This document shows, one piece after another, positions 304-32,304 of a stretch of 44,949 nt of DNA. Source of the DNA: an uncultured Christensenellaceae bacterium (GTDB lineage: Bacteria > Bacillota > Clostridia > Christensenellales > UBA3700). A program made the translations under genes and the position numbers. The stretch lies in assembly GCA_944380275.1 (NCBI GenBank), contig CALWHB010000009.1, positions 1 through 44,949 of the forward strand. The letters are read 5' to 3'. Below the pieces are notes generated by a model. It was not told the DNA's origin. It made no database searches and saw only the letters and a list, made by a program, of their open reading frames with translations. The stretch's first letter is position 1. The number at the start of each line of letters is the position of its first letter.

Positions 304-900
304 TTATCCTTGTCCCCTTACGAATTCCGAAGTAACGCTGACGGTAACCGTCGCCCCTTTGATTTCAGGCGGCAGCAACTCGTCAGTAACGTTGAACCTG
401 ATAGCAAGCACGAGATTTCCCGTACTTCCGGCGACGGGGTTATCGAAGGTGTAAACGGCGGAAGAATTATTCCACGCATATACCTCCGCGCCCTGCGACT
501 CGTAAAAAGCAAAGTCGAGTTTTCCTTGCATATAAGTCTGAATCTCGTCTGCAAGCGGCTGCCCGTCCGCGCCTCTCCATACTGCGGAAGACGCATATAC
601 GACGACTTTCATTGCCGTAACGTTCTCCTCTGCCTCTCCTATGACGTAAGGTACATCCATCCTTACGCCGTCAGAATTTGAAATATTACCCTGAGCGGTA
701 TTGTCGTTGACCGCCTTTACGGGCACGAGCATACCCTGGGTTTCGCCCACGCCTATGCTTATACTGAATTTGTCGTTGGAACCGATGGTGAGATAAGAAG
801 AATCGCTTTCGTTGGGAAAAAAGGCAAAAGCCGCGCCGATACCTACCAGCGCAATCAATATAACAAATAAAACAGCTATGACAGCAGTCCTTTTTTTCAT
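304..900 (-). CDS. TasA/CalY-like exported protein, 198 aa
   Basis: Starts MKKRTAVIAVLFVILIALVG, a basic N-terminus and long hydrophobic segment followed by AFAFFPNESDSS. The rest is a soluble beta-rich domain (alternating hydrophobic residues, no Cys). The C-terminal part ELLPPEIKGATVTVSVTSEF looks like the last strands of a TasA/CalY-type immunoglobulin-like fold. In that family the signal peptide is cut by the dedicated signal peptidase SipW, and two SipW-type enzymes lie 2-6 kb upstream. First gene of its own unit: consensus promoter at 941-969 and an AAGGGGAA site next to the ATG. I infer a secreted matrix or fibre protein. The family label rests on signal type and context, not on strong sequence identity. 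Confidence 0.65.
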   Translation of the reverse strand: MKKRTAVIAVLFVILIALVGIGAAFAFFPNESDSSYLTIGSNDKFSISIGVGETQGMLVPVKAVNDNTAQGNISNSDGVRMDVPYVIGEAEENVTAMKVVVYASSAVWRGADGQPLADEIQTYMQGKLDFAFYESQGAEVYAWNNSSAVYTFDNPVAGSTGNLVLAIRFNVTDELLPPEIKGATVTVSVTSEFVRGQG

Positions 901-969: not shown

Positions 970-1060
970 TAGGGGATTTTAAATTTTACATTAATCCGAC
1001 TATTTTTTACACTTAGTAAAGCTGTCGGAAAAATCAAAAACACCGTAAAACAAAACAAAC

Positions 1061-1099
1061 AAAAAAGCCTCTTTCGCTCATCGCAAAAGAGGCTTTTTT
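1061..1099. terminator. Intrinsic terminator, bidirectional
   Basis: AAAAAAGCCTCTTT and its complement AAAGAGGCTTTTTT flank a short loop, giving a GC stem with U-tracts on both strands. It sits just after the stop of the gene at 1121-1762 and ends the large minus-strand operon starting at about 9385. Confidence 0.9.
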
Positions 1100-1120
1100 G
1101 AATACATATCGTCTTTTTTA

Positions 1121-1762
1121 TCATGCAAAACAGTCTGCGCCCTCGCTGACACTCCTTCCACCGAAATCTACTGCACTTCTCTGCAGCCTGACGCAACGGT
1201 AAAAACATTTTTCGCCGAGAGTAAGCTCTCCGCCCCCGGACATGAAAACGACCTTTTCAAGGCTGTCGCAGAAAGCAAAAGAATAAGCCGCTATTTCGTT
1301 GACCGAAGAAGGAATCTCCAGCTCTTTTATCAGTCTGAGTCCGTCGTACTGCTCTACCGTACCCATGGCTATTGCCGTAACGGGAAGTTCCACAGTCTGT
1401 CCTGCTGCCGCAATCTTGACAGAAGGCGGAATTTTAAGCGTCGTCAGTATACCCTCGTAACCCTTTACCGTTACTGAAGTTATCGCAGAAACGTCAATAT
1501 CTCCTGCGTCGAAAGCGGATATTTCAGAGCCGTCGGCAGCCGTCTGAGCGTATCTCAGTTCCGTCTTCGCGCCGTTGTTGTCGACTATTTCCAGCACAAG
1601 GTATCTGAAAGACGGGTCTTCCCACTCTCCAGTCTGAGTCGTTGCGGGAGTAGAACCGCCGTCGGAAGTCGTCCAGACGGCATAGGTCACCGCCGTGATA
1701 CCCGCAATGATTATCACGCAGACGCACATAAATATCGTTAATCTCGCAAATTGTCCCTTCAT
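1121..1762 (-). CDS. Exported protein with BspA-type leucine-rich repeat region, 213 aa
   Basis: The N-terminus MKGQFARLTIFMCVCVIIIA is followed by GITAVTYAVWTTSDGG, a hydrophobic segment ending in the aromatic motif typical of SipW-dependent signals. The last ~100 residues contain LRR_5/BspA-type repeats: 'LKIPPSVKI', 'LEIPSSVNEIAAYSFAFC' and 'LTLGEKCFYRCVRL'. Such repeats mediate surface binding in BspA-like proteins. Last gene of the operon, followed by the terminator at 1061-1099; its start is 32 bp after the stop of the upstream exported-protein gene, with GGAG upstream. The array is only about three repeats long and ends abruptly (ADCFA), so it may be a small adhesin or a shortened relative of the large LRR lipoprotein at 29917-32304. 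Confidence 0.75.
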   Translation of the reverse strand: MKGQFARLTIFMCVCVIIIAGITAVTYAVWTTSDGGSTPATTQTGEWEDPSFRYLVLEIVDNNGAKTELRYAQTAADGSEISAFDAGDIDVSAITSVTVKGYEGILTTLKIPPSVKIAAAGQTVELPVTAIAMGTVEQYDGLRLIKELEIPSSVNEIAAYSFAFCDSLEKVVFMSGGGELTLGEKCFYRCVRLQRSAVDFGGRSVSEGADCFA

Positions 1763-1794: not shown

Positions 1795-2643
1795 TTAATT
1801 CGTATTCGCGTAAGCAACCACCTCAAAGATAAATTCAGAGCCTTTAAAGCTGTCGCCGCTGAACGGGAAAGTCTTTGCATAAGTTGCGTCAGAATAGGTT
1901 ATCTTTATGCATACGGGATTTGATTTACCGTAAGTCGCATCGGACACGACTTCGCTTGTTCCCGCAGGCAGATTGTCGCCGTGAACGAAATGCAGTCCCT
2001 CTCCCTCGTCCGCAAAAGTGCCGTAAGAATACGGTGGCAAAGTAGTCGTTATCTTAGCGTAGTTGAGCGTAAAGAATTTGTCGGCATTGACTTTGTCCAG
2101 CTTTATGCATATAACTTTGCCGTCTGCGGTACCGTCGTCTGTATAGACAAAAGCGGTGCTGCCGTCGGCAGGGTCTGTGAATACCGTTTCTTCGCCGTTT
2201 TCCGTAACAACTGTTTCGGCTTTGCCTATATGCGATTTTCCCTCGTCGTATCCGTCGAAAACTGATATTATTTCGTCAAGCGTTCGCTGCGCGCCCAGCA
2301 TATAAAAAGTGGGCGACACTTTTATATACAACTCGGTAAACTCAAGGCGCAGATAAAGGTCTGAATCGCCCTGAAGTTTTAGTGACGTATGATAATATGC
2401 CTCGTACGCTTTGTCGTCGTTGGTATACGCCGTACCGTTGTCGTCATAACCCTTCTGCCCGTTGTATTTCTCATTGTTAAGCACTCCGCTGTCGTCAAAC
2501 ACGACTTTGACGTAACTGCCCGCCGTAAGCGTGGTAAACGCAGTGCTGTCCTGTCCTGCCGAAAACCACGCAAAAGTCAGTGCCAGCATGCACAGCACCA
2601 GCACCAGCATAAGTATTGGAGTTAACACTTTCGCGGTTTTCAT
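1795..2643 (-). CDS. TasA-like exported protein with TFAWFSAG signal, 282 aa
   Basis: MKTAKVLTPILMLVLVLCML is followed by ALTFAWFSAGQDSTAF, a hydrophobic signal with the aromatic motif shared with the 9552-10589 protein (TFAWFSSGSQ). The remaining ~240 residues are an acidic, Tyr/Thr/Asp-rich, Cys-free extracellular domain. The C-terminus FKGSEFIFEVVAYANTN resembles the final strands of TasA/CalY domains. Encoded directly downstream of the SipW-type peptidase (2677-3531; 33-bp gap), the arrangement seen for tapA-sipW-tasA. Likely a secreted matrix subunit or accessory pilin-like protein; I do not recognise a closer family. Confidence 0.7.
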   Translation of the reverse strand: MKTAKVLTPILMLVLVLCMLALTFAWFSAGQDSTAFTTLTAGSYVKVVFDDSGVLNNEKYNGQKGYDDNGTAYTNDDKAYEAYYHTSLKLQGDSDLYLRLEFTELYIKVSPTFYMLGAQRTLDEIISVFDGYDEGKSHIGKAETVVTENGEETVFTDPADGSTAFVYTDDGTADGKVICIKLDKVNADKFFTLNYAKITTTLPPYSYGTFADEGEGLHFVHGDNLPAGTSEVVSDATYGKSNPVCIKITYSDATYAKTFPFSGDSFKGSEFIFEVVAYANTN

Positions 2644-2676: not shown

Positions 2677-3531
2677 TCAGACGTCGTCAGTTTTACCTTT
2701 GTCGTCTGTCGCGCTTTTATTTTCGGTTTCACTTATATTGTCGGTCGCGGATTTGTCTTCAGCCATATCTTTATTATGTGTCGCGCCTTTATAGTCAATC
2801 GCTGCTTTGTCTTCTGTCAAGGCTTTATTCTCTTTTGCCAGCTCTTCTCTGATATAATTCTCAACGGCTTCTCTCTTGATTTCTTCAACGTCCTCCTGTC
2901 CGCCGGGAGATTCGTCGGATTTTTTCATCGCTGCATTTTTACTCTTTGCACTCGCCACGGCAAATACGGCAATCTGCCACAGGGCAATCAGCACGAGAGG
3001 TATCACGATAATGAGCAGAAACCCGGCTTTGCTCTTTAGCACGGTCTGCAACCCGGCAAGCAGTTCGCTTTTTCCAAGAACCACGCCGCTCACGTTTTCT
3101 ATCGGAACGGGAACGTTGTCGGTCGCCGCTGCAGCGTCCCCTTTAGTGCGTATATACCACTTGCCTTCGTCGTCCCGATAGGGAGCAACGACTATTCTGT
3201 GCGTTACGGTATATCCTTCTACTGCCCCGAAACCTTCGGGAGCGATAAACGTAACGACGTCGCCTTCTTCCAACCGCGCAGGGTCTTCTGCAAGTTCTTC
3301 GCCGTCCAATGCTTTTACTATGATTACGTCGCCTTTATCGTAAGTCCCCGTCATACTGTCAGTAAGGACGACAAAAGAACGATACCCGAAAAGCGTGGGT
3401 TCTTTGCCCGTAAAAGTCTGTATCATAACAGTCAGCAGACATGCGAACACAAACAAGAACAACACCGTTACAATTATGTTTATAATCAACACGGGTACAG
3501 AAATTTTTTTCTTATTCTCACTCTTTTCCAT
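2677..3531 (-). CDS. sipW: SipW-type signal peptidase I (S26B) with charged cytoplasmic tail
   Basis: One membrane helix (~10-37), an extracytoplasmic catalytic domain, a second helix (~162-190) and a ~90-residue cytoplasmic tail. The catalytic Ser is in VVLTDSMTGTYDKGDVIIVK (Ser59) and the His in VTHRIV (His111). The Ser/His pair, rather than Ser/Lys, marks the archaeal/ER-like S26B class to which SipW belongs. SipW enzymes cleave TasA/CalY-type precursors, and such genes follow directly. The tail carries DVEEIKREAVENYIREEL then low-complexity Lys/Asp/Thr motifs (KSATDN, KSATDD). I chose the ATG at 3529-3531, which overlaps the upstream gene by 14 bp, over a TTG at 3543. Second SipW in the same operon. 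Confidence 0.88.
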   Translation of the reverse strand: MEKSENKKKISVPVLIINIIVTVLFLFVFACLLTVMIQTFTGKEPTLFGYRSFVVLTDSMTGTYDKGDVIIVKALDGEELAEDPARLEEGDVVTFIAPEGFGAVEGYTVTHRIVVAPYRDDEGKWYIRTKGDAAAATDNVPVPIENVSGVVLGKSELLAGLQTVLKSKAGFLLIIVIPLVLIALWQIAVFAVASAKSKNAAMKKSDESPGGQEDVEEIKREAVENYIREELAKENKALTEDKAAIDYKGATHNKDMAEDKSATDNISETENKSATDDKGKTDDV

Positions 3532-5434
3532 CTTCTGTCCCAACTGTGTTTTCTACCTTTTCAACACCGTCTGCGGTGTCTGGTTCAACTCGTTTCCCGT
3601 CGTATCCGGACGTTTTTTCTTCATTTGAAGAAGTTGTCTTTTCTTCTTCATGCGCCACTTCCCCGTCATCAGCCGCTATGACCGTTTCGTCGACCGAGAG
3701 AGCCGCATCGGATACGCTCTCGCTCTCTGATTCCGCTGCCGCACGGTCTGACGGCTGTGCGTTTTCCGTTTCGTCCTCTTTTTCTCCGTTGCCGTCAGAT
3801 TGCGCTCTTCCGGCATCCGACAGCTTGGCAACCGCGTCTGCAGCATTTTCTGCGTCGTTTGAAAGCGCGGCAAGCATAGGAGTTACAGAGAGGTCTTCGA
3901 CTTCTCCCAAATCTTCTCTGTTTTCTTCTTCGGAAAGCAGTGCTTTATCGAGTTTCTCTTTTCTCTCACGCATCTCTTCTTCCAGCTTTTCAAGACGCTT
4001 TCTGTCGCGCTCTTTCTGCTTTTCCAGAGATTCGCGCTCTCTTTCTGCAATTTTTTCTTTCTTTGCAAGAGAACGTTCGAGAGCGAGTTTCTCCTTTTCC
4101 ATTTCTTTGAGCATCTTTTCCTGCTCTATCTCGTTCTGACGGTAACGTATCTGAGCGACTTCCGACTTTCTCTTTGCGCGCAAAGTGCTTTCGCTGAGCA
4201 ATACACGGTCGATAGCCTTGTTGATACGCGCAAGCTGTGCTTTGTCCACCTTTCCGTCCGTCTGCTGGAACAGATTGCGCAGTTCCGCCACACCGAACTC
4301 GTCCGGCAATTCTTCTTCCTGCTCTTCTTCCTGTTGAGGCTTTTCCTCTTCAGGCTGCTCTTCTCCGCCTTCCGATTCTTCCGGCGACGGGGTTTCGACG
4401 GTTTCCGGAGCAGGCGTTTCTTGCGGTTTTTCTCCTTCTTTTTCCCCTTCTTTCTCTCCTTCTTTCTCCTCTTGTTCAAGCTCTGTCATATTGGATTCGT
4501 CAAAGAACAAAGCGTCTTCCACCTTGCTGTTGACAAGTCCTTCCATAAGAGAATTGCAGATAAACATCATGTCGCTGACAGCGTTTTCCACGCCTTCGTC
4601 GACCGGCATTTTTTCGCTCACGTTTTCGACAGAAAATCCCATCTTTGAATAGCTCTCTATAAACTGCCACAGCACGAGAGCCTTTTTGAAGTCAGGGTTT
4701 TTCAGAATAACGTTGGTACGCGTTATAGGCGGTCGTACGGGCGCGCTGTTTATCATCTGTTTTGCAAACGGCGACGACAAAAAGTCTGATATGATGCGCT
4801 GAAGTTTGCTCACCCTTTCCACTATCTTGAGGTCCGCGCCCTGTATCTCTTCCTCTACGTCAGACGGGACAGAGCCTATCAGTTCGAGATTGTAGAACAC
4901 ACGTGTCTTGCCCATATAGAAGTTTGCGTCCACGTCGAGTTCGAGAATATTGTCGTTGATGTAAGCCTTTTTTATCGCGTCCATGCGTCTTGCGATAAAG
5001 TTGGAAAGATTTTTGAGAAGAGTATAGATAAAGCGGTTCTCGTATATCTCAAAGCTTTCCTCTTTTGTCGTGTTGAGTATTTTATTGGGCGTAACGTTGC
5101 CTTCTTTATCCACGCTCGCAATCATATTGGTATGCTGAGCCAGATGCTTGACTGACTCTGTGGAAATCGCTCTTGCGAGCGAAATATCCACAATGTCTTC
5201 TTCTATTACAATGAATTTTCTGGGGTTTCTGACTATATTGTCGAGAGAGGTTATGCACGATTCAATCATGTCTATCCAGTCTGTTTCAAACTGTTTGCTC
5301 CTGCTCTTTTTTGCCAGTTTAAACTGAGGTTTGGACGCGCGCAGTCTGCGCCTGAAAGTCTGATAAAACTCGTCAGAACGCAGCATTGAGTTTATCTTCT
5401 CGACGTAAGTGTCAAATTTTTGTCTGTCGTCCAT
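3518..5434 (-). CDS. DUF2357-like protein with long acidic and coiled-coil C-terminus, 638 aa
   Basis: Residues 1-310 form a globular region with the motif FEIYENRFIYTLLKNL (YENRF at 131-135). This resembles the 'YENRFV' segment of DUF2357 proteins, which pair with McrB-like AAA ATPases (McrC-type partners); an McrB-like ATPase is encoded 1.5 kb upstream in the same operon. Residues ~315-400 are extremely acidic (repeats of EKEGEKEG and Pro/Glu). Residues ~405-510 are a strongly predicted coiled coil (KEMEKEKLALERSLAKKEK), and the rest is Ser/Asp/Glu-rich. I see no signal peptide, membrane helix or clear PD-(D/E)XK nuclease motif. A cytoplasmic scaffold or AAA partner is my inference. It is 24 bp after one SipW gene and overlaps the next, so co-translation is likely. 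The family call is moderate. Confidence 0.6.
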   Translation of the reverse strand: MDDRQKFDTYVEKINSMLRSDEFYQTFRRRLRASKPQFKLAKKSRSKQFETDWIDMIESCITSLDNIVRNPRKFIVIEEDIVDISLARAISTESVKHLAQHTNMIASVDKEGNVTPNKILNTTKEESFEIYENRFIYTLLKNLSNFIARRMDAIKKAYINDNILELDVDANFYMGKTRVFYNLELIGSVPSDVEEEIQGADLKIVERVSKLQRIISDFLSSPFAKQMINSAPVRPPITRTNVILKNPDFKKALVLWQFIESYSKMGFSVENVSEKMPVDEGVENAVSDMMFICNSLMEGLVNSKVEDALFFDESNMTELEQEEKEGEKEGEKEGEKPQETPAPETVETPSPEESEGGEEQPEEEKPQQEEEQEEELPDEFGVAELRNLFQQTDGKVDKAQLARINKAIDRVLLSESTLRAKRKSEVAQIRYRQNEIEQEKMLKEMEKEKLALERSLAKKEKIAERERESLEKQKERDRKRLEKLEEEMRERKEKLDKALLSEEENREDLGEVEDLSVTPMLAALSNDAENAADAVAKLSDAGRAQSDGNGEKEDETENAQPSDRAAAESESESVSDAALSVDETVIAADDGEVAHEEEKTTSSNEEKTSGYDGKRVEPDTADGVEKVENTVGTEDGKE

Positions 5435-5458
5435 ACTCTCGCCCCTTTACGCGCTATA

Positions 5459-6790
5459 TTATTTCCCGGATTTTTCAGTCTTTTTTGTCGCCGGTTTTTT
5501 AGTTGCAGTCGTCTTTTTTGCAGCGGCGGTCTTCTTTGCCGTCGTCGACGAGGATTTTTTTGTCGTCGATTTTTCGCCCGTTGACTTCGCGCCGTTCTTC
5601 GCGGTTGCAACTGATTTTTTTGCCGTCGCAGTCTTCGCTGCCGCAGTGGTTTTCTTTGCGTTAGACGAAGTCTTCTTTGCCGCAGAAGTCTTTTTCACGA
5701 CGGGTTTTTCGCTGTCGTCAGATGATTTTTCGTCTGACTCGTCAGTCTTTTCAGTTTCCTCAACGGTTTGCGGCACCGTTTCGTCGGCAGGCTGTTCTGC
5801 CTCTTCTGCCGCGTCTTGAACGGAGCTGTTTGAAGAAACGCCGTCTTCAGCGGTTTCTGACTGTTCTGCAAGGCTTTCAACCTCTTTTTCTTCAGATGTT
5901 TCAACGCTTTCCGCCGTTTGATTGATTTCTGTTACGGCTTGCGCGTCCTGTTCCTGTTTTACGTCTTCAGTCGATGGATTTTGCAAGGCAGAATCGTCAG
6001 ATGTCCTTTCTTCAACCTTTTCCTCCTCTGCCGCAACGACGTTTTCCTGCGATTTCTTCTCTTGCTCCATCATCTTCTTAAACTCTTCCATCGCAAGTCT
6101 TCTTATTTCTTCGACGTCAATCGCTCCGCCCTGAGCAGCGGTTTCCGCCGCAAGCTGTTCTCTCTGCTTTTTCAGCTTTGCGTCCATGACAAAACGTACG
6201 ACGAGGTATGCGTTATAGATAAGCAGCAGTATAAGCGGCAGCATTATCACGAGAAAGAAATGCGTGGGGTCCTGCAACCAGAATACCGCGCTGCCCACTC
6301 CCGCGAGTTTACCTATGAATACGCCCTTTATGTCGCCTGCGTAAATCGTCTTTGTAAGCCCGGAGGTTTCTGCGTCGCCCCTGGTCGTATATGCCTTTAC
6401 TTCTGTTCCGTCCTCAAGCGTAGTAGTCTTTATGTCCACGATACGGTGGGTTACGAACTGAAGGTCAGCCCCTACATAATCGAGATATGTTATTATGTCG
6501 CCCTCTTCGAGTTGTGACAAATCAGCCTTTTCCGCGCTCTTTACTATGATAAGGTCGCCTGCCTTGAAACTGTCCTCTTTATCCCCGTTCATACTGTCTG
6601 TAAGTACGGGCATGAGTCTGATTGACGATTTGCCGAAGTCAGTATTGCTTTCGTACCCCGTCGACAACAATATCGATACCGAAAAGGCAATCGCGACGAT
6701 AACTATCGCAATCTGAAGGATTATCAACGCCGTATTGAGAACGACTTTGCCTTTGCTCATCGGCTTTGTATCGGTATTTTTCTTTGCCAT
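5459..6790 (-). CDS. SipW-type signal peptidase with acidic and histone-H1-like tail, 443 aa
   Basis: N-terminal helix (~17-43), catalytic domain with VLTDSMNGDKEDSFKAGDLI (Ser66) and FVTHRIVDI (His115), second helix (~178-202), then a ~240-residue tail predicted to lie in the cytoplasm. The Ser/His pair identifies the S26B/SipW class. The tail starts IDVEEIRRLAMEEFKKMM, matching the tail start of the other SipW (2677-3531), passes through a Glu/Ser/Thr-rich stretch (~230-355), and ends in ~85 residues of Lys/Ala/Thr repeats (AAKKT, TAAAK, TKKPATKK) like bacterial histone-H1-like or AlgP-type tails. Family members are normally about 190-200 residues. A strong AAAGGAG site precedes the ATG. 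The catalytic role is well supported; the tail's role is unknown. Confidence 0.87.
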   Translation of the reverse strand: MAKKNTDTKPMSKGKVVLNTALIILQIAIVIVAIAFSVSILLSTGYESNTDFGKSSIRLMPVLTDSMNGDKEDSFKAGDLIIVKSAEKADLSQLEEGDIITYLDYVGADLQFVTHRIVDIKTTTLEDGTEVKAYTTRGDAETSGLTKTIYAGDIKGVFIGKLAGVGSAVFWLQDPTHFFLVIMLPLILLLIYNAYLVVRFVMDAKLKKQREQLAAETAAQGGAIDVEEIRRLAMEEFKKMMEQEKKSQENVVAAEEEKVEERTSDDSALQNPSTEDVKQEQDAQAVTEINQTAESVETSEEKEVESLAEQSETAEDGVSSNSSVQDAAEEAEQPADETVPQTVEETEKTDESDEKSSDDSEKPVVKKTSAAKKTSSNAKKTTAAAKTATAKKSVATAKNGAKSTGEKSTTKKSSSTTAKKTAAAKKTTATKKPATKKTEKSGK

Positions 6791-6903
6791 ATATTCTCCT
6801 TTCCGGCATAAAAGCCGTATTTTTTGTCCTTTAGTAATTGTGATTATCCGCAGACTTTGAACATGAGAGTTTTAAAGTTGCCCGATGTCGTCATGCGGAA
6901 AAA

Positions 6904-8439
6904 TCAGAACAGTTTCTTGAGCCTTTGCAGATATTCTTTGCTCTCTCCCATGTTTTCTTCTCCGAAAAGCTCTGACAGATAGTCGCATAGACCGTCTATC
7001 TCGTCGCGGATAAAGCCGAGGTTGAGCGACTCGAATTTTCTGAGTATCTTATTGCACAGCACATAATCGATACCGTCAATCTCGGTACCGCCGCAAGCGA
7101 CGTATGAGGGAACAAACTCTTTGAGCTGCTTTACGATACGGTTACCGAACGCCAGTCTGAAGTGTTCGATAACATAATCGTCGAGGGTGTTTATCTTGTC
7201 AATTACTTCTTGAGAAACCTTGTGTTCTTCCTGCGCCTTTTTAAACATGCTTTCAACATGCTTGAAAGACACATAAAGTTTATCTGTATCCGGCGCGTCA
7301 AAAGGCACGCCCTTGGTATTGATGTTGATAGGAATAGCACGGTCGTAAACCTTATCCGAAATTGCGAAAGTTGAGTCGTCGTTGTTTGCCGTGCCGATAA
7401 ACCACATATTCTGCGGCAGAGTGAAACGTCCTTTCACGACGTGTTTGGGGTCGTTGGGCCAACCGCTGGGGACGAGGTCTACAATCCAGTTGTCGCGCGA
7501 CGGCATTTCGAGAATAGACAACATTTCTGCAAAATAGTACTCGACACGCGCGATGTTCATTTCGTCGAGGACGGTTATGTAAATATTCTCGTTCCAGGTC
7601 GCCTCGTACATCTTCTTGAGGACTTCGGTTTCGTTGAATCGCTTTGTAAATTCGTTGAAGTAACCGAAAAGTTCGGTACGGTCACGCCACGAAGGCTGAA
7701 CGGACGCGATGGTCGCGGGGTTGTCGAGGAACTGTCCCGTCGCATATGCGAGAGATGTTTTACCCGTACCTGAAATACCTTGCAGTATCAGAAGTCTTGT
7801 AGTGGACATACCTGCCCAGAAGAGGCGGATTATACGCGGCTCGTAATAAAGTCTGAGTCTGCTTGCGGCAAAATTGCGGAAACGGTCGCAGATTTCTGCG
7901 AGAGTGATTTCGTTGTCGTAAACGGGCGGAGTATAATTCTCGTAAATCTGGTCGACTTCGGTAAGTTTGAAGAAACGGCTCTCTCCCTCTTTGAGTTTGC
8001 TGTCCTCTCCCTGTCCTTCTTCTCCCTCTTCTTCTTCCAGTCCTTCGAGGAACGCGTCGCCCTCGGCACCTGTAACCTTCATACGCAGAATTCTGTCCTT
8101 TTCCTGCGTAAGTTTGAGAATCTGTTTTTTCAGATTGTGGATTTCGTCCAGTAAATCCTGATTGATAACCGGTTTTTTGAACCTCTTCACCAGTCTGATA
8201 GTAAACCATACGATTACCCATATGAGAGCCGCAAGTATCGCCACAACGAGTATGGCTATAAGAATAGCGAGTATCCACTCACCTGCTCCCCATCCGTTGG
8301 CGTTTACCCAGAAAGCGTCATAATATGCGGGAAAATTGAACATCTGAAAAATACCGCCGAAAATGCCGACGAATATCTGACTGACGCCGCCCCACAGCAC
8401 GCCGAGAAACGCTTTGATGAAATTTAACATGTTGTCCAT
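6904..8439 (-). CDS. Membrane-anchored McrB-like AAA+ ATPase/GTPase, 511 aa
   Basis: Residues 54-85 form one long transmembrane helix, preceded by an amphipathic hydrophobic N-terminus. A coiled coil (~92-122), an acidic linker (~125-152) and an AAA+ module follow: Walker A GISGTGKTS (221-229), VQPSWRD (247-253, as in McrB 'VQP.W.D'), Walker B ITVLDEMN (D292 E293), sensor-1 region FIGTANNDDS (347-355) and an Arg at 367. McrB itself has MNT-AD there, so this is a divergent McrB/MoxR-clade member. McrB proteins are cytosolic and pair with McrC; membrane anchoring and placement among signal peptidases are unusual. The start is 15 bp after the upstream gene's stop. I infer a remodelling ATPase at the membrane with the 3518-5434 protein as partner. 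Confidence 0.82.
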   Translation of the reverse strand: MDNMLNFIKAFLGVLWGGVSQIFVGIFGGIFQMFNFPAYYDAFWVNANGWGAGEWILAILIAILVVAILAALIWVIVWFTIRLVKRFKKPVINQDLLDEIHNLKKQILKLTQEKDRILRMKVTGAEGDAFLEGLEEEEGEEGQGEDSKLKEGESRFFKLTEVDQIYENYTPPVYDNEITLAEICDRFRNFAASRLRLYYEPRIIRLFWAGMSTTRLLILQGISGTGKTSLAYATGQFLDNPATIASVQPSWRDRTELFGYFNEFTKRFNETEVLKKMYEATWNENIYITVLDEMNIARVEYYFAEMLSILEMPSRDNWIVDLVPSGWPNDPKHVVKGRFTLPQNMWFIGTANNDDSTFAISDKVYDRAIPININTKGVPFDAPDTDKLYVSFKHVESMFKKAQEEHKVSQEVIDKINTLDDYVIEHFRLAFGNRIVKQLKEFVPSYVACGGTEIDGIDYVLCNKILRKFESLNLGFIRDEIDGLCDYLSELFGEENMGESKEYLQRLKKLF

Positions 8440-8454
8440 AGATTTCCCCTTATC

Positions 8455-9285
8455 TTACGGTTGTATTGCGTCCGCCTGAGTTACGCGGAAGTTGTATTCA
8501 AAATTGACCTTTGCCCCTATCAGAGCGTCCACGCAGTCGCTGTCAGACCCTTCAAGCCAGATTAGCACGGTGTATTTCTTCACTTCTCCCACTGCGAGAA
8601 AGGTGTCCGGAGAGTCGAACACGGTGATGTTGCTGTCAGACGGGCTGTCTGAGGCAAACGGAGTCGTAACGTTTGTACCCAGCAGTTTGTCAAGCTGACT
8701 TTCTCCCAGAGGGAGCGGTTGCTGAGTATCTTTTTTGTCTGTGTCGTACGCTATATATTCCGGAGTTCCGTCAGAACGCGTAACAGCATAACAGGTTGCC
8801 TTTTCCTCATCCTCTATCACGATAATTCTGACAGCTCTCTCAATATCCTTGGACACATAATTGAGAACTATAGACCCCTTGAAAAGGATGTCTGACTCAC
8901 TTACGTTTTTAAGAAAAAAACTGAAAGCGATATAGTCGTTGCCGTGATGGTCGCCCTCTCTGCCCAGGATTTCGTTCTTATAGATGTTGTCGTAAGTTAT
9001 GTTTGTCATATCCTCAGGACCGTCCATTTTGAGAACGGATGCAGGCTCTGCAAAATCAGCCGTTCTGCTGACGGAAATATCGCCCACGTTGTTTCTGTCA
9101 ACGACTATTCTCATACTGTTGGAATCTATAAAGACAATGGTACCCCAGACCGCGCCCGTAAGGAGCAGCGCGCAAATCAGGAAAATTATAATAACGGTCG
9201 TAGCGGTACGCCTTTTGCTTGCCGCCCTGACCTTTTGATTTTTGATAATCTCGTCCTGTTTAGGCTTTGTAAACTCTCTTCCCAT
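8455..9285 (-). CDS. Membrane-anchored extracytoplasmic protein, first gene of SipW operon, 276 aa
   Basis: A 28-residue basic cytoplasmic N-terminus (KRRTATT) leads into one hydrophobic helix (~31-53) and a ~220-residue outer domain. The domain ends FNFR-like as EYNFRVTQADAIQP and includes IAFSFFLKNVSE and YTVLIWLEGSDSDCVDALIG, a pattern of strands and turns like TasA/CalY-type beta domains. There is no TFAWFS motif, so it may stay anchored rather than be cleaved. First gene after the promoter at 9392-9420 with a ~100-nt leader; GATAAGGG upstream of the ATG. Possible roles are a fibre anchor or initiator (TapA-like) or an assembly factor; no closer homologue recognised. Confidence 0.65.
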   Translation of the reverse strand: MGREFTKPKQDEIIKNQKVRAASKRRTATTVIIIFLICALLLTGAVWGTIVFIDSNSMRIVVDRNNVGDISVSRTADFAEPASVLKMDGPEDMTNITYDNIYKNEILGREGDHHGNDYIAFSFFLKNVSESDILFKGSIVLNYVSKDIERAVRIIVIEDEEKATCYAVTRSDGTPEYIAYDTDKKDTQQPLPLGESQLDKLLGTNVTTPFASDSPSDSNITVFDSPDTFLAVGEVKKYTVLIWLEGSDSDCVDALIGAKVNFEYNFRVTQADAIQP

Positions 9286-9391: not shown

Positions 9392-9420
9392 ATTATATTA
9401 TAATATATCAAATGTGTCAA
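9392..9420 (-). promoter_or_regulatory. Consensus sigma-A promoter of the SipW/McrB-like operon
   Basis: On the minus strand TTGACA (9415-9420), 17-bp spacer, TATAAT (9392-9397): a perfect match to the sigma-A consensus. The start would be near 9385, ~100 nt before the first ATG. A 12-bp AT palindrome (9395-9406) overlaps the -10 box and spacer, similar to the promoter at 941-969. Confidence 0.88.
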
Positions 9421-9477: not shown

Positions 9478-9517
9478 TAAAAAAGCGCGAAAACCCCGCC
9501 GCGCAAGCGCGGCAGGG
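9478..9517 (-). terminator. Intrinsic terminator after the 9552-10589 gene
   Basis: On the minus strand CCCTGCCGCGC and GCGCGGCGGGG form a GC stem followed by TTTTCGCGCTTTTTT. It separates the abundant-looking exported protein gene from the SipW operon promoter. Confidence 0.85.
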
Positions 9518-9551: not shown

Positions 9552-10589
9552 TCAGGGGCCTACTGCAGCTTTGAGTTCCTGTCCCGTAAAAGCAATCGTA
9601 AATGTAAATCCGCCCTGGCTTGCGGACGCACCTACGGTAGTACCGTCCAACCATACGTACAGATACATTGCGTAAGATGCTTGAGCCGCCATCTTTGCTT
9701 TTGTATAAGTAGCCTCTGCGGTTTCCGCGCCGGGAAGACCCGCATTAAGCAGCTGATAGGTAACGCTGTCCTGACCGACGACCGACTGAGCGGCAAGAAC
9801 ACGGTTGATGCCGTCTTCGTTAGCAAGAGCTACGGGAGTATATGTAGCGTTAGTTGCAGTTGTACCGCTGGGAGTCGTACCGCTAAAGATGTCCGTACCG
9901 CTGTTCTTGATGCCGTAATTATACTGTGATGCGAGAACGAATCCCGTCGGGTCGCCGCTGAGAGGCTTAGCTATAAGTACAAATCTCAGAGCGGACGCGG
10001 CACGTACGTCGTTGGAGTTATCTCTGTCATTGGGGGTTATAGTAACGGTAACCTGAACAGCCTGGTCGTAAGATTTGATGTTGGTCATGCTGAATCTTGC
10101 GATGTTGGGATAGTCAAGCGGCTGACCTGACGCCGGCTTTGTAAGGTTCTTGGGGTTGAGATAAGTGATTGCGCTTACACTCGTGTTGCCCGCGACCGCC
10201 TGAGCGGAATAGAAAGGCTCTGAAGGAAGACCTGTGCCCGCCATACCTGCCGCAACTTCCTGCGCAGACGCAAACGTCTTGATTGTATCGGTATCGATTG
10301 CGTTAATCGGAGCGACTGCCTTCAATCCGTTGGTAGACCAGTAAGCGTACGGAGTCGTACCGTAAAGACCTTCCGCATCGGTAAAGTCGATTGTGGTGGA
10401 AGAAGTAACCGCATAGTCAGTACCCTCCCATTTGCTGAACGAGAACGCCGCGTTATCCGCCTGAGCGGTAAAAGAACTCGTTACGTTGGATTGCGAACCT
10501 GACGAGAACCATGCGAAAGTCGCGGTGGTCAGAGCTACAACGATTACGAGTATCGTGGCGATTGTTGTAATTACCAAACTCTTTTTCAT
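9552..10589 (-). CDS. Secreted TasA-like protein, candidate major fibre subunit, 345 aa
   Basis: MKKSLVITTIATILVIVVAL is followed by TTATFAWFSSGSQSN, a signal of the SipW-dependent type. The mature part is ~310 residues, Ala/Ser/Thr/Gly-rich, nearly Cys- and Trp-free, ending YAMYLYVWLDGTTVG and FTFTIAFTGQELKAAVGP, the strand pattern of the C-terminal half of TasA/CalY domains. The ribosome binding site is strong (AAGGAGAG, 7 nt from ATG), and a stem (10644-10657) and a terminator (9478-9517) bracket the gene, consistent with high expression. It follows a degenerate EAL gene and precedes the SipW operon. I infer the main surface fibre or matrix protein; that it is processed by one of the two SipW enzymes is not shown. 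Confidence 0.72.
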   Translation of the reverse strand: MKKSLVITTIATILVIVVALTTATFAWFSSGSQSNVTSSFTAQADNAAFSFSKWEGTDYAVTSSTTIDFTDAEGLYGTTPYAYWSTNGLKAVAPINAIDTDTIKTFASAQEVAAGMAGTGLPSEPFYSAQAVAGNTSVSAITYLNPKNLTKPASGQPLDYPNIARFSMTNIKSYDQAVQVTVTITPNDRDNSNDVRAASALRFVLIAKPLSGDPTGFVLASQYNYGIKNSGTDIFSGTTPSGTTATNATYTPVALANEDGINRVLAAQSVVGQDSVTYQLLNAGLPGAETAEATYTKAKMAAQASYAMYLYVWLDGTTVGASASQGGFTFTIAFTGQELKAAVGP

Positions 10590-10668: not shown

Positions 10669-11355
10669 TCAATCTGCTTTTCCCAAAAGCGTTTCAAGTT
10701 TCTTTTTCGGTTTTGAATACGCGCTGCCGCTTACGAGATTTATCCCTTCCTGAAAGAAAGGTTCAAGATTGTTCTTGTTTATCACGTTGCCCAGCACGAG
10801 TTTCACCCCTTTTTGCTTTGCTATATTAGCAAATATAGATATGAGTGAAAAATTGCTCCGGTTGTAATAGCGGTAATCCAGAAGAAAATATTCAGGATTA
10901 TACTTCGCTATGACGTCCATAGGAGCGCGCTCTATACCTTCAATCATAACGTGCGCTCCTCTTTTTGCCAGAAAGTTGAGTCCTATCCTGCTGTGTCTGT
11001 CGCCGAAAGCCTCCAGCTGGAATATGTCAAAACACAGCACGAGATTTTCTTTGAGCAATCCTGCAAGGCGGTGTACGTTGCCTTCTGCAAGCAGGCGGCT
11101 GCTTATCTTGTAGATAAACTTAGTTGCCGGATACTTTGCGGTATCCTCTTCAAATTGCGTCAGTGCGAGAAAATTGAGCGTTTCGATACGGGAACTTGTC
11201 TGAGCCGCAGGAACGTACTGCCACGGATATAAAACGCCGAGTACTTCGTCCTCCAGCACCTGCCAGACTTCTACGAATTCCGTTTTGCCTTCCCCGTCGA
11301 AATAGGGTATGTAGCAATAAAAAACGGGCTTTTTGACAGTAGCCGTTTTCCCCAT
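10669..11355 (-). CDS. Degenerate EAL-domain protein, probably without diesterase activity
   Basis: The fold signature of EAL (cyclic-di-GMP phosphodiesterase) domains is visible in order: EDEVLGVLYPWQYVPAAQTS (the EAL...P..FIP.AE segment), then a strand/helix series, RGAHVMIEGIE where the family has a DDFG motif, PEYFLLDYRYYN (p..iKiD), KGVKLVLGNVINKNNLEPF where the family has AEGVE, and GSAYSKPKK (QG...skP). Several metal and catalytic acids are therefore replaced, so I predict a non-catalytic receptor or scaffold. At 228 residues it has no other domain and no membrane segment. I chose the ATG at 11353-11355 with AAGGAGG 12 nt upstream; a GTG at 11377 lies upstream of that site. Promoter at 11410-11438. 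Location upstream of the TasA-like gene suggests a role in matrix control. Confidence 0.72.
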   Translation of the reverse strand: MGKTATVKKPVFYCYIPYFDGEGKTEFVEVWQVLEDEVLGVLYPWQYVPAAQTSSRIETLNFLALTQFEEDTAKYPATKFIYKISSRLLAEGNVHRLAGLLKENLVLCFDIFQLEAFGDRHSRIGLNFLAKRGAHVMIEGIERAPMDVIAKYNPEYFLLDYRYYNRSNFSLISIFANIAKQKGVKLVLGNVINKNNLEPFFQEGINLVSGSAYSKPKKKLETLLGKAD

Positions 11356-11409
11356 ACGGCGATTTTGCCTCCTTACCACACAACGCGAATATTTACGCTT
11401 TATACTGTT

Positions 11410-29916: not shown

Positions 29917-32304
29917 TTATTTCGCAAACACGTTGTCCCCTATATCAATAAGACTGACCGGGAGCGCAGGCTCTTTGAGCAACGGACAGTAAGCGAACGC
30001 ATAACCGCCCAACTCCAGCAATCCGTCGTTCAGGCTCACTTCGCTCAGGGAATCACAGTTTAAAAACGCGTTGTCATCTATCTTTTTCAAAGTGGACGGA
30101 CACGCCAGGGACAAGAGAGAAGAACATTGAGTAAATGCCGCAACACCTATTTCCTCAACACCTTCTTCCATGCAAAGTTCCTTTATTGCGACGCAACTCA
30201 TAAACGCGGCATCTCCTACACGGGCGCATGAAAACGTAACTTTTTCAAGCATATATGCATAGGAAAAGGCATATGCGGAAATTTCGCTCGCGGATTCTTT
30301 TACCGCATATTCCGTGCCAGCCTTTCCCGCCGGATAAACTTCAAGCGTACTGCCGTCTGCCGTATAAACGACTCCGCCTTCTGAAACGTAAGCTCCGCCT
30401 TCTTCAACGGTTATCGCGCTCAGCTTTAAACATTGAGAAAACGCACCTTCGCCCAAAGACGTTACAGTCGCGGGCAGGCATACCTCTCCGACAAACTGCG
30501 CACCTGCAAACGCAAGTTTTCCTATTTCGGAACATAACGACCCCTGCTCAAACGTCAGCGTTGTAAACGAGGGGCTTTGACCGAGAGAATACAGAAGATA
30601 GTCAGGCACCTTCTCAACGTATTTTCCGACGGTGAAAACAGAGCTTTCGCTGCCTGCCTGCGAGAACGCGGTTCCGCTTATGCCCTGAGTCGCCGCGTCG
30701 ATTGCTCCGTAATATACGCTTTCGAGTGCGACGCAGCCTTCAAACGCGCCTGCGGATAAAGTAGTTACCGTCGAAGGTATGTTCACGCTCTTTAACGCCG
30801 TCCCTGCAAAAGCCCTCACTCCTATCTCAGAAAGTATGCCTTCTTCGTCAAACTTAACTTCGTTAAGCATCGGTCCGCTCTCCGACAATGCGTCAAACAT
30901 CCGCGAGGGAATAACTTTTACCTTATTTCCGACGTACAGTCTTAAACCGTTGCCGCCGCCTGCATTGTCGAATATCGCGTTTCCCTCTACCGGAGCATAT
31001 GCCTCGCTTGCAAGATAATTCACCTCTGTAGCGGCAACACAACCGGCAAAAGCACGGTTTCCTATGTACTCAACGCCTTCAGGCACTGTCAACGATTCAA
31101 GCGACACGCAGTTTTCAAACGCACTTTCCCCTATATTCTTAAGCGTAGCCGGAAGAGAAAGCGTTGTAATAAAAGAACAGTTCTCAAACGCTCTGTCGCC
31201 TATCCCCGTTATCACTTCGGGAACGGTTACAGACGTGTAATTCCCTCCGCAGAACGCTCCTTCGGCTATAGTGTTTACCTGCTCGGGAATAACTATTTCA
31301 ACTTCTTTTCCTATATATCTTAGGAGCTGTTTGCCCGAAGAATCGGTGATAAAAAGACCGCAAGAAGAATATGAAGGATTTGCCTCGTCAAATACGAGAT
31401 TGTCAAGCAATATCAGGTCGTCGAAAGCCTGCCACTCAATCTCAGTAAATCCGCTGCCGAGAAGTGTGATTTCGGTTAGTTGCGGAACTCTTGCAAACGC
31501 ACCGTCCTTAATTCCGCTTATAGAGAAGAATCCCCATGACGAGGGCAATACTATATAATCGAACGGATACGACGGCGATATTTCCGACACATACATTTTG
31601 CCGTTCTTGACAAGGAGCGTAAGGTAGCCCAGCGCGAAAAGTCCTTTTTCATCGTCGCTTGCCTCTTTCCAGCTCAGCTCTACCGTTTCGTCCTTTTCCA
31701 CTTCTGTATATTTTCCGTTTACGGAAAGCGAATAAAGCGAGTTTCCGTCAACCCTGAACTGAGATAAAGGAAGTGTCGCGTTTTTGCCCTTTTCAACCTG
31801 CTGCACGCTCAGGATTTCGCCGTTCATAATAAACGTAACTTTAAAAACGCTCTGTTCGGGTTCCTGAGGAGTCTGTTCTTCACCCTCGTCTTCATCGCCC
31901 GTCTGACCGCCCTCTCCGGTTTCTCCTCCCGTTTCGCCGCCTTCGGATGGATTCTCCGTAAGGTTCCATGCCGCATACAGAGCAACGTCGGTCTTGTTTT
32001 CGTCGGCAAGGAACTCTTCAAGCACAAACGACCTCGTCAGCTCTTCGTCGTAAAACCAGCCCACAAAGGAATATCCGTCTTTGAACGGTTCTTTGGGCAT
32101 TGCCATGGTATTTCCGACGCAGACTGCTATGCCGTACAGTCCGCCGTCGACGTAAAAACTCACTTTTATCGTTTCAGCCTGCTCTCCGTCGCCCGGAACG
32201 GAATCCGACGGGTCGACGTCGACTTTTTCGCACGCGCCGAGCGTAACCGCAATAATTGCGATTATCACAAATAACGTAATGACGAAAATCAGCTGTTTTT
32301 TCAT
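29917..32304 (-). CDS. BspA-like leucine-rich-repeat lipoprotein with InlB-type repeat, 795 aa
   Basis: MKKQLIFVITLFVIIAIIAV and lipobox VTLGAC give a lipidated Cys25. Then come an InlB B-repeat (SFYVDGGLYGIAVCV...YSFVGWFYDEELT..DVALYAAW), an acidic Gly/Glu linker (~115-150) and a beta domain. From ~250 to the end there is a long array of LRR_5/BspA repeats with the cycle 'I..GAF..C..L..V..P..V..IG..AF' (GDRAFENCSFITTLSLPATL and similar). Such proteins bind host or bacterial ligands at the surface. 795 residues, apparently complete; the last repeat ends at the stop. It is a single gene upstream of gpmI, whose promoter starts 35 bp after this stop. Related to the small LRR protein at 1121-1762. 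Confidence 0.9.
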   Translation of the reverse strand: MKKQLIFVITLFVIIAIIAVTLGACEKVDVDPSDSVPGDGEQAETIKVSFYVDGGLYGIAVCVGNTMAMPKEPFKDGYSFVGWFYDEELTRSFVLEEFLADENKTDVALYAAWNLTENPSEGGETGGETGEGGQTGDEDEGEEQTPQEPEQSVFKVTFIMNGEILSVQQVEKGKNATLPLSQFRVDGNSLYSLSVNGKYTEVEKDETVELSWKEASDDEKGLFALGYLTLLVKNGKMYVSEISPSYPFDYIVLPSSWGFFSISGIKDGAFARVPQLTEITLLGSGFTEIEWQAFDDLILLDNLVFDEANPSYSSCGLFITDSSGKQLLRYIGKEVEIVIPEQVNTIAEGAFCGGNYTSVTVPEVITGIGDRAFENCSFITTLSLPATLKNIGESAFENCVSLESLTVPEGVEYIGNRAFAGCVAATEVNYLASEAYAPVEGNAIFDNAGGGNGLRLYVGNKVKVIPSRMFDALSESGPMLNEVKFDEEGILSEIGVRAFAGTALKSVNIPSTVTTLSAGAFEGCVALESVYYGAIDAATQGISGTAFSQAGSESSVFTVGKYVEKVPDYLLYSLGQSPSFTTLTFEQGSLCSEIGKLAFAGAQFVGEVCLPATVTSLGEGAFSQCLKLSAITVEEGGAYVSEGGVVYTADGSTLEVYPAGKAGTEYAVKESASEISAYAFSYAYMLEKVTFSCARVGDAAFMSCVAIKELCMEEGVEEIGVAAFTQCSSLLSLACPSTLKKIDDNAFLNCDSLSEVSLNDGLLELGGYAFAYCPLLKEPALPVSLIDIGDNVFAK

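Follow-up and report, generated by a model that had tools for sequence, protein, structure and literature searches.

A CoCoPALM-type operon with a predicted membrane-anchored McrB-type ATPase and two SipW-type signal peptidases in an uncultured Christensenellaceae bacterium

Gene content of the locus

We analysed a stretch of 44,949 nucleotides from an uncultured Christensenellaceae bacterium (contig CALWHB010000009.1 of assembly GCA_944380275.1; hereafter, the window), and in it a gene cluster on the minus strand in which a McrB-type AAA+ protein and a DUF2357 protein are encoded among two SipW-type signal peptidases, with genes for exported proteins flanking this core on either side. Judged by the sequences of its genes, the locus is a CoCoPALM-type operon, a kind that has been named and is little studied, and it belongs to a real system that recurs across genomes. 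The gene positions, the strand and the spacings were as given in an earlier note, which had been made from the letters of the DNA. The core genes, in the order in which they follow each other on the minus strand, and the motif found in the tails of the peptidases are:

6904 to 8439, minus strand: McrB-type AAA+ protein with an NxD motif (predicted membrane helix at residues 52-88, coiled-coil helix at 93-122, AAA+ core from residue 157)
5459 to 6790, minus strand: SipW-type signal peptidase A; its cytosolic tail is long (NF046067, 55.5 bits; TDSM and VTHRI motifs)
6074 to 6115, minus strand: tail motif VEEIRRLAMEEFKK in SipW A
3518 to 5434, minus strand: DUF2357 (McrC N-domain) partner (PF09823, E=3.9e-10, over the cut-off; no nuclease found)
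2677 to 3543, minus strand: SipW-type signal peptidase B (TIGR02228, 69.2 bits, over the cut-off; TDSM and VTHRI motifs)
2848 to 2889, minus strand: tail motif VEEIKREAVENYIR in SipW B

The AAA+ protein and its DUF2357 partner

The ATPase had been described as McrB-like and membrane-anchored, and both descriptions were borne out. A profile built from 39 homologues matched three PDB sequences at E≤0.001, each of them McrB (best E=2e-8). The window protein itself matched the NCBIfam McrB model PRK11331 (E=4e-8, yet far under the cut-off of that equivalog) and PF07728 AAA_5 (E=1.7e-4, barely above the cut-off with 22.1 against 22 bits). The P-loop, D292-E293-x-N295 and N352-x-D354-D355 are invariant in the 39 aligned proteins; the NxD motif of the window protein reads GTANNDDSTFAI, and in one protein outside this alignment (L044) the motif is absent by pattern. 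The AlphaFold2 model (pLDDT, the predicted local distance difference test, 78; pTM, the predicted template modelling score, 0.65) begins with N-terminal helices, followed by a long helix (52-88) that is predicted to span the hydrophobic stretch, the coiled-coil helix and the AAA+ core, and the hydrophobic segment lies at an equal place throughout the alignment. No Pfam family of a DNA-binding specificity domain was found on the protein, whose N-terminus is taken up by the predicted membrane helix and coiled coil. An FtsB/DivIC family was matched neither by the window protein (Pfam, E≤10) nor among the 25 of 55 Pfam families listed for the 39 members.

The partner was correctly called DUF2357-like: beside the Pfam match given above, 28 of 41 aligned relatives match the same family. 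Its model is of low confidence (pLDDT 69, pTM 0.43) and suggests an alpha/beta domain up to residue 305, a coiled-coil helix at 398-503, a helix at 519-538 and disorder elsewhere, including the tail. The earlier note had seen neither a nuclease nor a DNA-binding domain, and neither was found here; none of the 41 matches a Pfam nuclease family at E≤0.01, and beyond residues 1-305 and the helices this low-confidence model leaves no folded region for a PD-(D/E)xK nuclease. One of the 41 weakly matches a PADLOC model of a Type II nicking endonuclease (E=2e-4), which counts against a nuclease-free family. A Foldseek search with the model returned no match at E≤0.001, McrC included, and the statement therefore rests on Pfam and on the layout of the model. 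PDB matches of the DUF2357 profile up to E=1 fall nearly all in the C-terminal coiled-coil part, and the two weak matches of the N-domain (E=0.81) are to CRISPR-associated proteins.

Recurrence and linkage of the genes

DUF2357 was found at 71 places in 65 of the order's 297 genomes, and the corresponding locus set comprised the window and 70 fetched stretches. It yielded 72 DUF2357 entries (one locus lies in two pieces; duplicates were retained), 37 of which have an AAA+ gene and at least two SipW genes on the same strand within six genes. Another 13 have an AAA+ gene and one SipW gene, 18 an AAA+ gene without SipW, and four lack the AAA+ gene; these four and ten of the 13 with one SipW lie within 4 kilobases of the end of the fetched stretch. 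A second search, by the AAA+ alignment alone, matched at least 594 stretches, of which 583 were confirmed and the best 80 kept. The records of these 80 are from Christensenellaceae, Oscillospiraceae, Ruminococcus (including Ruminococcus albus KH2T6) and Lachnospiraceae; DUF2357 is present in 78 and SipW in 78, and all 44 that have full flanks hold DUF2357 and at least one SipW. In R. albus KH2T6 (L191) the SipW, AAA+ and DUF2357 genes stand in a row. Some loci belong to both sets, and for the counts called dereplicated below we dropped 16 loci whose AAA+ protein is at least 98% identical to that of an earlier locus; duplicates remain in the counts of DUF2357 entries, of the best 80, of exported-protein clusters, of spacings and overlaps, of distance correlations and of the EAL cluster. 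The earlier note had proposed to look for recurrence with exported partners, and the gene set does recur, with SipW at 114 of 129 dereplicated AAA+ loci. Of the two outcomes that the note had named as refuting its reading, a lack of co-occurrence in relatives and a nuclease with a DNA-binding domain in the partner, neither appeared within the limits given above.

The genes are also closely linked. The gap from the AAA+ gene to the DUF2357 gene has a median of 37 bases (129 pairs), and the DUF2357 gene overlaps the next SipW gene in at most 36 of 73 pairs, an upper bound because starts were set at the first start codon. Protein distances of the AAA+ protein correlate with those of DUF2357 (rho 0.80) and of the downstream SipW (rho 0.55), where permutations gave at most 0.15; both values include shared species history, uncorrected.

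Most of the group without SipW is made up of a second type of locus, in which two McrB-type proteins are encoded around the DUF2357 gene (L085, L086, L089, L091, L092, L094, L095 and L097-L100). A third AAA+ label at these loci was assigned to proteins of 1064-1249 amino acids that have no Walker A motif by pattern; the one that was scanned matches family 3 glycoside hydrolases, and the label was therefore taken as false. This gene of a family 3 glycoside hydrolase, at L085:11653-15168, lies immediately before the second-type AAA+ genes, and proteins of similar length occupy that position in L086, L089, L095, L099 and L100. Six second-type partners were scanned; a transglutaminase core was present in two and an AgI/II C2 domain in two (over the cut-off), and one protein carries both.

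SipW-type peptidases and a motif in their tails

Both proteins that had been proposed as SipW-type signal peptidases match SipW and archaeal-type signal peptidase models and keep the Ser and His motifs; the TIGR02228 cut-off is passed by B only. The equivalog cut-off of NF046067 (190 bits) is missed by both (55.5 and 76.1 bits), and we therefore call them SipW-type and do not assign them to the Bacillus SipW equivalog. The longest frame of SipW B overlaps the DUF2357 gene. Among the SipWs of all loci, 150 of 201 have both motifs by a simple pattern (duplicates included). The genome to which the window belongs, about 90% complete, encodes two SipW-type peptidases at E≤0.01, both at this locus. 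In one genome of the genus a third SipW-type gene (L103, G080:C7) lies away from the operon and lacks the tail motif.

Behind the second membrane segment of both SipWs, in the cytosolic part, there is a short helix-like motif with a consensus of about EEEIKRRAIEEYLA. Using a scored profile in a leave-one-locus-out scheme, with the threshold at 1% of shuffles, we found it in 64 of 89 locus tails and in 2 of 21 solo SipWs. The solo SipWs were drawn from the best 30 SipW loci, with L115 and L124 excluded as they are on operon contigs, and the SipW of L078 was left out as its second membrane segment is absent. A strict pattern, tried as well, found only 25 of 90 tails, and the scored profile was used instead. 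At the 37 loci with two or more SipWs the motif is present in every SipW at 22 and in at least one at 32. A separate test set (111 SipWs, 92 of them under 70% identity to the training set, 79 after dereplication, 76 with a tail) gave the motif in 55 of 76 tails, where 0.8 were expected. In a tree of the peptidase part (110 rows), 40 upstream and two downstream SipWs form one group of 42 that holds no solo SipW and includes SipW A, and the remaining downstream SipWs cluster with the solo ones. The tail motif is found in both main parts of the tree, which requires at least ten changes on well-supported branches.

Exported proteins and extent of the neighbourhood

The genes and signals on either side of the core are:

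304 to 900, minus strand: exported protein with the SipW-type signal AAFAFF
1060 to 1100, minus strand: terminator-like stem of 18 pairs closing the core unit
1121 to 1762, minus strand: exported protein with a BspA-type leucine-rich repeat (PF13306, E=1e-6, over the cut-off)
1795 to 2643, minus strand: exported protein with the SipW-type signal LTFAWFS (its cluster comprises 12 proteins from 12 loci, counting duplicates)
8455 to 9285, minus strand: predicted membrane-anchored W-x-E-G-x-D protein with the cytosolic head DEIIKNQKVRAASKRRT (alignment A4, 19 members)
9392 to 9420, minus strand: promoter-like site TTGACA-17-TATAAT (12 of 12 matches)
9485 to 9504, minus strand: terminator-like stem ahead of the core unit
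9552 to 10589, minus strand: exported protein of 345 amino acids with the SipW-type signal TATFAWFSS, of the W-x-E-G family
10669 to 11379, minus strand: EAL-domain protein, apparently degenerate (PF00563, E=8e-10, over the cut-off)

The promoter and terminator that the earlier note had placed around the core unit were found, at 9420-9392 and 1100-1060. Promoter-like and terminator-like matches in the window exceed the shuffle values (26 where shuffles give 14.7, and 22 where they give 14.4, respectively); individual sites are no proof. The conserved neighbourhood extends beyond 9285 and continues upstream into a second unit, which runs from a promoter-like site at 11438-11410 through the EAL gene and the gene of the SipW-signal protein (10589-9552) to the terminator-like stem at 9504-9485.

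Several exported proteins had been proposed near the SipWs, and SipW-type signals are indeed present at 10589-9552, 2643-1795 and 900-304. Across dereplicated operons, a tight SipW-type motif (e.g., TFAWF) close to the end of the hydrophobic stretch was found in 155 of 264 exported-like proteins, where shuffles led us to expect 17.0, and 69 of the 81 loci with exported-like proteins in the operon have at least one that bears it. In the alignment of the 9552-10589 family (A3, 26 members) W313 and G316 are invariant and T24, A26 and W27 nearly so, and the W-x-E-G-x-D end is common to this exported family and the 9285-8455 protein. The window member of the exported family (9552-10589) was assigned to no Pfam family. 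The latter may possibly be a fibre anchor. Its family has a conserved cytosolic head of about IIKNK-x-x-R-x-x-x-RRR, possibly a second contact site. The earlier description of the exported proteins as TasA-like was right as to the export signal and not as to family: none of the window proteins scanned matches a Pfam TasA/CalY family, nor does any of the 26 exported-family members. Pfam matches in the exported family are confined to single members and scattered families, TIGR04087 and TIGR04088 gave weak matches only, to three and two of the 26 members, respectively, with E about 0.01 at best, and PDB searches with A3 and A4 gave no match up to E=1.

An EAL-domain gene accompanies the operon

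Of the dereplicated loci, 63 of the 114 that have SipW and none of the 15 that lack it hold, in the fetched stretch, a gene of the EAL family (defined by a hidden Markov model) to which the window protein belongs. A BLAST cluster of these proteins holds 75 members at 68 loci (duplicates included), all 75 on the strand of the operon; 59 are encoded three to six genes upstream, and some downstream. Ten proteins of the family were scanned: all ten have EAL, three match GGDEF (two over the cut-off) and two have HD domains. In the window protein the residues at what we take to be the catalytic places look replaced. It is the sole EAL match of its own genome at E≤0.001. Within the genus, EAL occurs once each in 8 of 13 genomes, always on the contig that carries DUF2357, which itself is present in 11 of the 13; in three genomes (G297, G298 and G299) no EAL match accompanies DUF2357, which in G297 and G298 lies within 4 kilobases of the contig end. 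An EAL-domain protein is thus retained in a genus in whose 13 genomes no GGDEF match was found, and control by cyclic di-GMP is therefore doubtful in the window organism; a link to cyclic di-GMP is plausible for some relatives.

Relation to known systems

McrB-type motors are known from DNA cutting, and the McrBC partner is seated in the ring. The window locus resembles the McrBC Type IV restriction systems of E. coli and Thermococcus in pairing an AAA+ core with DUF2357, and differs from them in that neither a PD-(D/E)xK nuclease nor a DNA-binding domain turned up, in its NxD rather than NxxD motif and in its predicted membrane anchor.

The earlier note knew of no described system with this composition. 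In fact, one was named by Bell et al. (2024, eLife, PMC11090510), whose account, where it touches this family, is a single paragraph that leaves it for later work. In it, CoCoPALM stands for McrB GTPases of the NxD type to which an FtsB-like domain, with membrane and coiled-coil parts, is fused and which are tied to proteins of the signal peptidase family; a role in pilus assembly is proposed. The window locus agrees with this description in its NxD McrB homologue with a predicted membrane helix and coiled coil, in the coiled coil of the McrC homologue (helix 398-503 of the model) and in its signal peptidase neighbours, two in the window and SipW at most dereplicated loci. The terms TasA, biofilm, EAL domain, GGDEF and di-GMP do not occur in the main text of that article, whereas the window locus has an EAL gene, and no tail motif was seen in its account of CoCoPALM. 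Relative to that text, the present analysis adds the SipW tail motif, the EAL association, the confinement to the locus of the SipWs found in the window's own genome, and the context that bears on mobile defence. A literature search for the term CoCoPALM brought up Bell et al. (2024) and its preprint as the relevant papers, and searches that covered few subscription papers found, among the papers listed, no study of the function of such systems.

CoCoNuT systems share the NxD motif and the coiled coils, and their McrC homologue often has no nuclease; according to the same article, those without it always have another nuclease nearby (PMC11090510). Unlike them, the window locus gave no nuclease match among the ten window proteins scanned. 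As 25 of 111 neighbour families are listed for the relatives, the nuclease-free neighbourhood is stated for the window only. With the Bacillus tapA-sipW-tasA and CapP-TasA-CalY systems the locus shares a SipW-type peptidase and substrates with SipW signals, and it differs from them in exported proteins that match no TasA/CalY model. The words AAA, ATPase and GTPase do not occur in the text of the paper on B. cereus CapP (PMC13082335), whereas the window locus encodes an AAA+ protein. A second, regulatory role of Bacillus SipW has been reported (PMC13082335), and TasA fibres form by donor-strand exchange (PMC9674648).

Possible function and alternative explanations

Gene association and sequence together make it rather more probable than not that the locus takes part in SipW-dependent export or in the assembly of fibres, and the best reading of it is a nucleotide-driven membrane device that would act together with SipW when surface fibres are matured or assembled. 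The McrB-type ring would lie on the inner face of the membrane, held by its own helix and coiled coil, and the DUF2357 protein, in the manner of McrC, would stimulate the hydrolysis of nucleotides by the ring. Through the EEEIKRRAIEEYLA helix the SipW tails may bind this ring or the coiled coil of the AAA+ protein. The nucleotide cycle would gate or order the cleavage and the hand-over of fibre subunits. The membrane-anchored W-x-E-G-x-D protein could form the base of the fibre and the EAL-domain protein a regulatory input. The full scheme, in which a restriction-type ring was turned into a membrane assembly machine with SipWs docked by the tail helix, DUF2357 coupling hydrolysis to the ordered cleavage and polymerisation of fibre subunits and an EAL switch, is put forward tentatively and may well not hold. 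If it is true, Gram-positive bacteria would possess a fibre assembly system that is driven by nucleotides and made from a defence motor. A large, membrane-anchored McrB family in which no nuclease was found, standing beside SipWs, would show the reuse of such a motor for building the cell surface, and SipW-dependent fibre export would thereby gain a component driven by nucleotides. As a contact, the tail motif would be small and directly testable.

Several observations weigh against this reading. Distances of the AAA+ protein correlate weakly with those of the upstream SipW (rho 0.24; permutations at most 0.13, species history uncorrected), and the tail motif is absent from 25 of 89 SipW tails. 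SipW-type signals were also found in 36 of 114 exported-like proteins outside the inferred operons (5.5 expected), and this class of signal is therefore common nearby too. TasA/CalY is absent from the 12 Pfam families matched by the 26 exported-family members. For the model of the ATPase, the top Foldseek match was RavA (E=2.7e-4) and McrB came fourth (E=5e-4), both at E<0.001, and the PADLOC model PDC-M26A, presumably one of a phage-defence candidate, matches the ATPase at E=8e-37. Moreover, all of the support is of the kind that gene association and sequence provide, which also leaves some room for the view that a McrBC remnant and a SipW export cluster share an operon without joint work. 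We regard such a chance partnership as very improbable, since the gene set recurs in records from all four groups named above with its content kept while the order changes, the catalytic motifs are retained in the AAA+ protein, and the tail motif is common to both parts of the SipW tree.

The PADLOC match bears equally on the idea of an anti-phage system that is bound to the membrane and descends from Type IV restriction, in which the ring would sense infection, the exported proteins would be effectors or shields and SipW would only mature them. Bell et al. (PMC11090510), in their paragraph, place the family among CoCoNuT-like systems, within a census of Type IV restriction, and relatives of the AAA+ core were found on 223 plasmid records and one phage record. 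These plasmid and phage matches all cover less than 80% of the query; the 11 listed among them begin at residue 147 or later and miss the membrane part. To examine the neighbours we scanned 86 proteins from 35 loci, at most three per locus, excluding core, exported, EAL, short and cut ones. At E≤1e-10, 19 PADLOC families match at least one of them and none more than three. ShosA is among the commonest of these matches (three proteins), Pfam finds DprA in three, and these are taken to be the same. The Pfam families of the neighbours, 25 of 111 of which are listed, also include Mg-chelatase (which we read as ComM-type), MreB, Hsp70 and SecA. Together with the absence of a Pfam nuclease family from all 41 partners and the occurrence of DUF2357 in most of the genus (11 of 13 genomes), this context speaks against mobile defence, and we consider the anti-phage explanation unlikely.

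Besides McrB, the AAA+ core of the model also resembles AAA+ rings that handle proteins, and this, with the predicted membrane anchor, would also suit quality control, where the ring would extract signal peptides or misassembled membrane subunits for degradation. No protease was recognised by eye among the recurrent neighbour clusters, which were only partly identified, a Rce1-like protease domain was found in just 2 of the 86 scanned neighbours, and the seat of the partner in the McrBC ring does not favour threading; quality control thus seems a rather remote explanation.

Other features of the window

A promoter-like site (969-941) precedes the gene at 304-900. Outside the CoCoPALM-type locus, the window encodes at 29917-32304 an exported protein with repeats that, judged by eye, are of the leucine-rich type.

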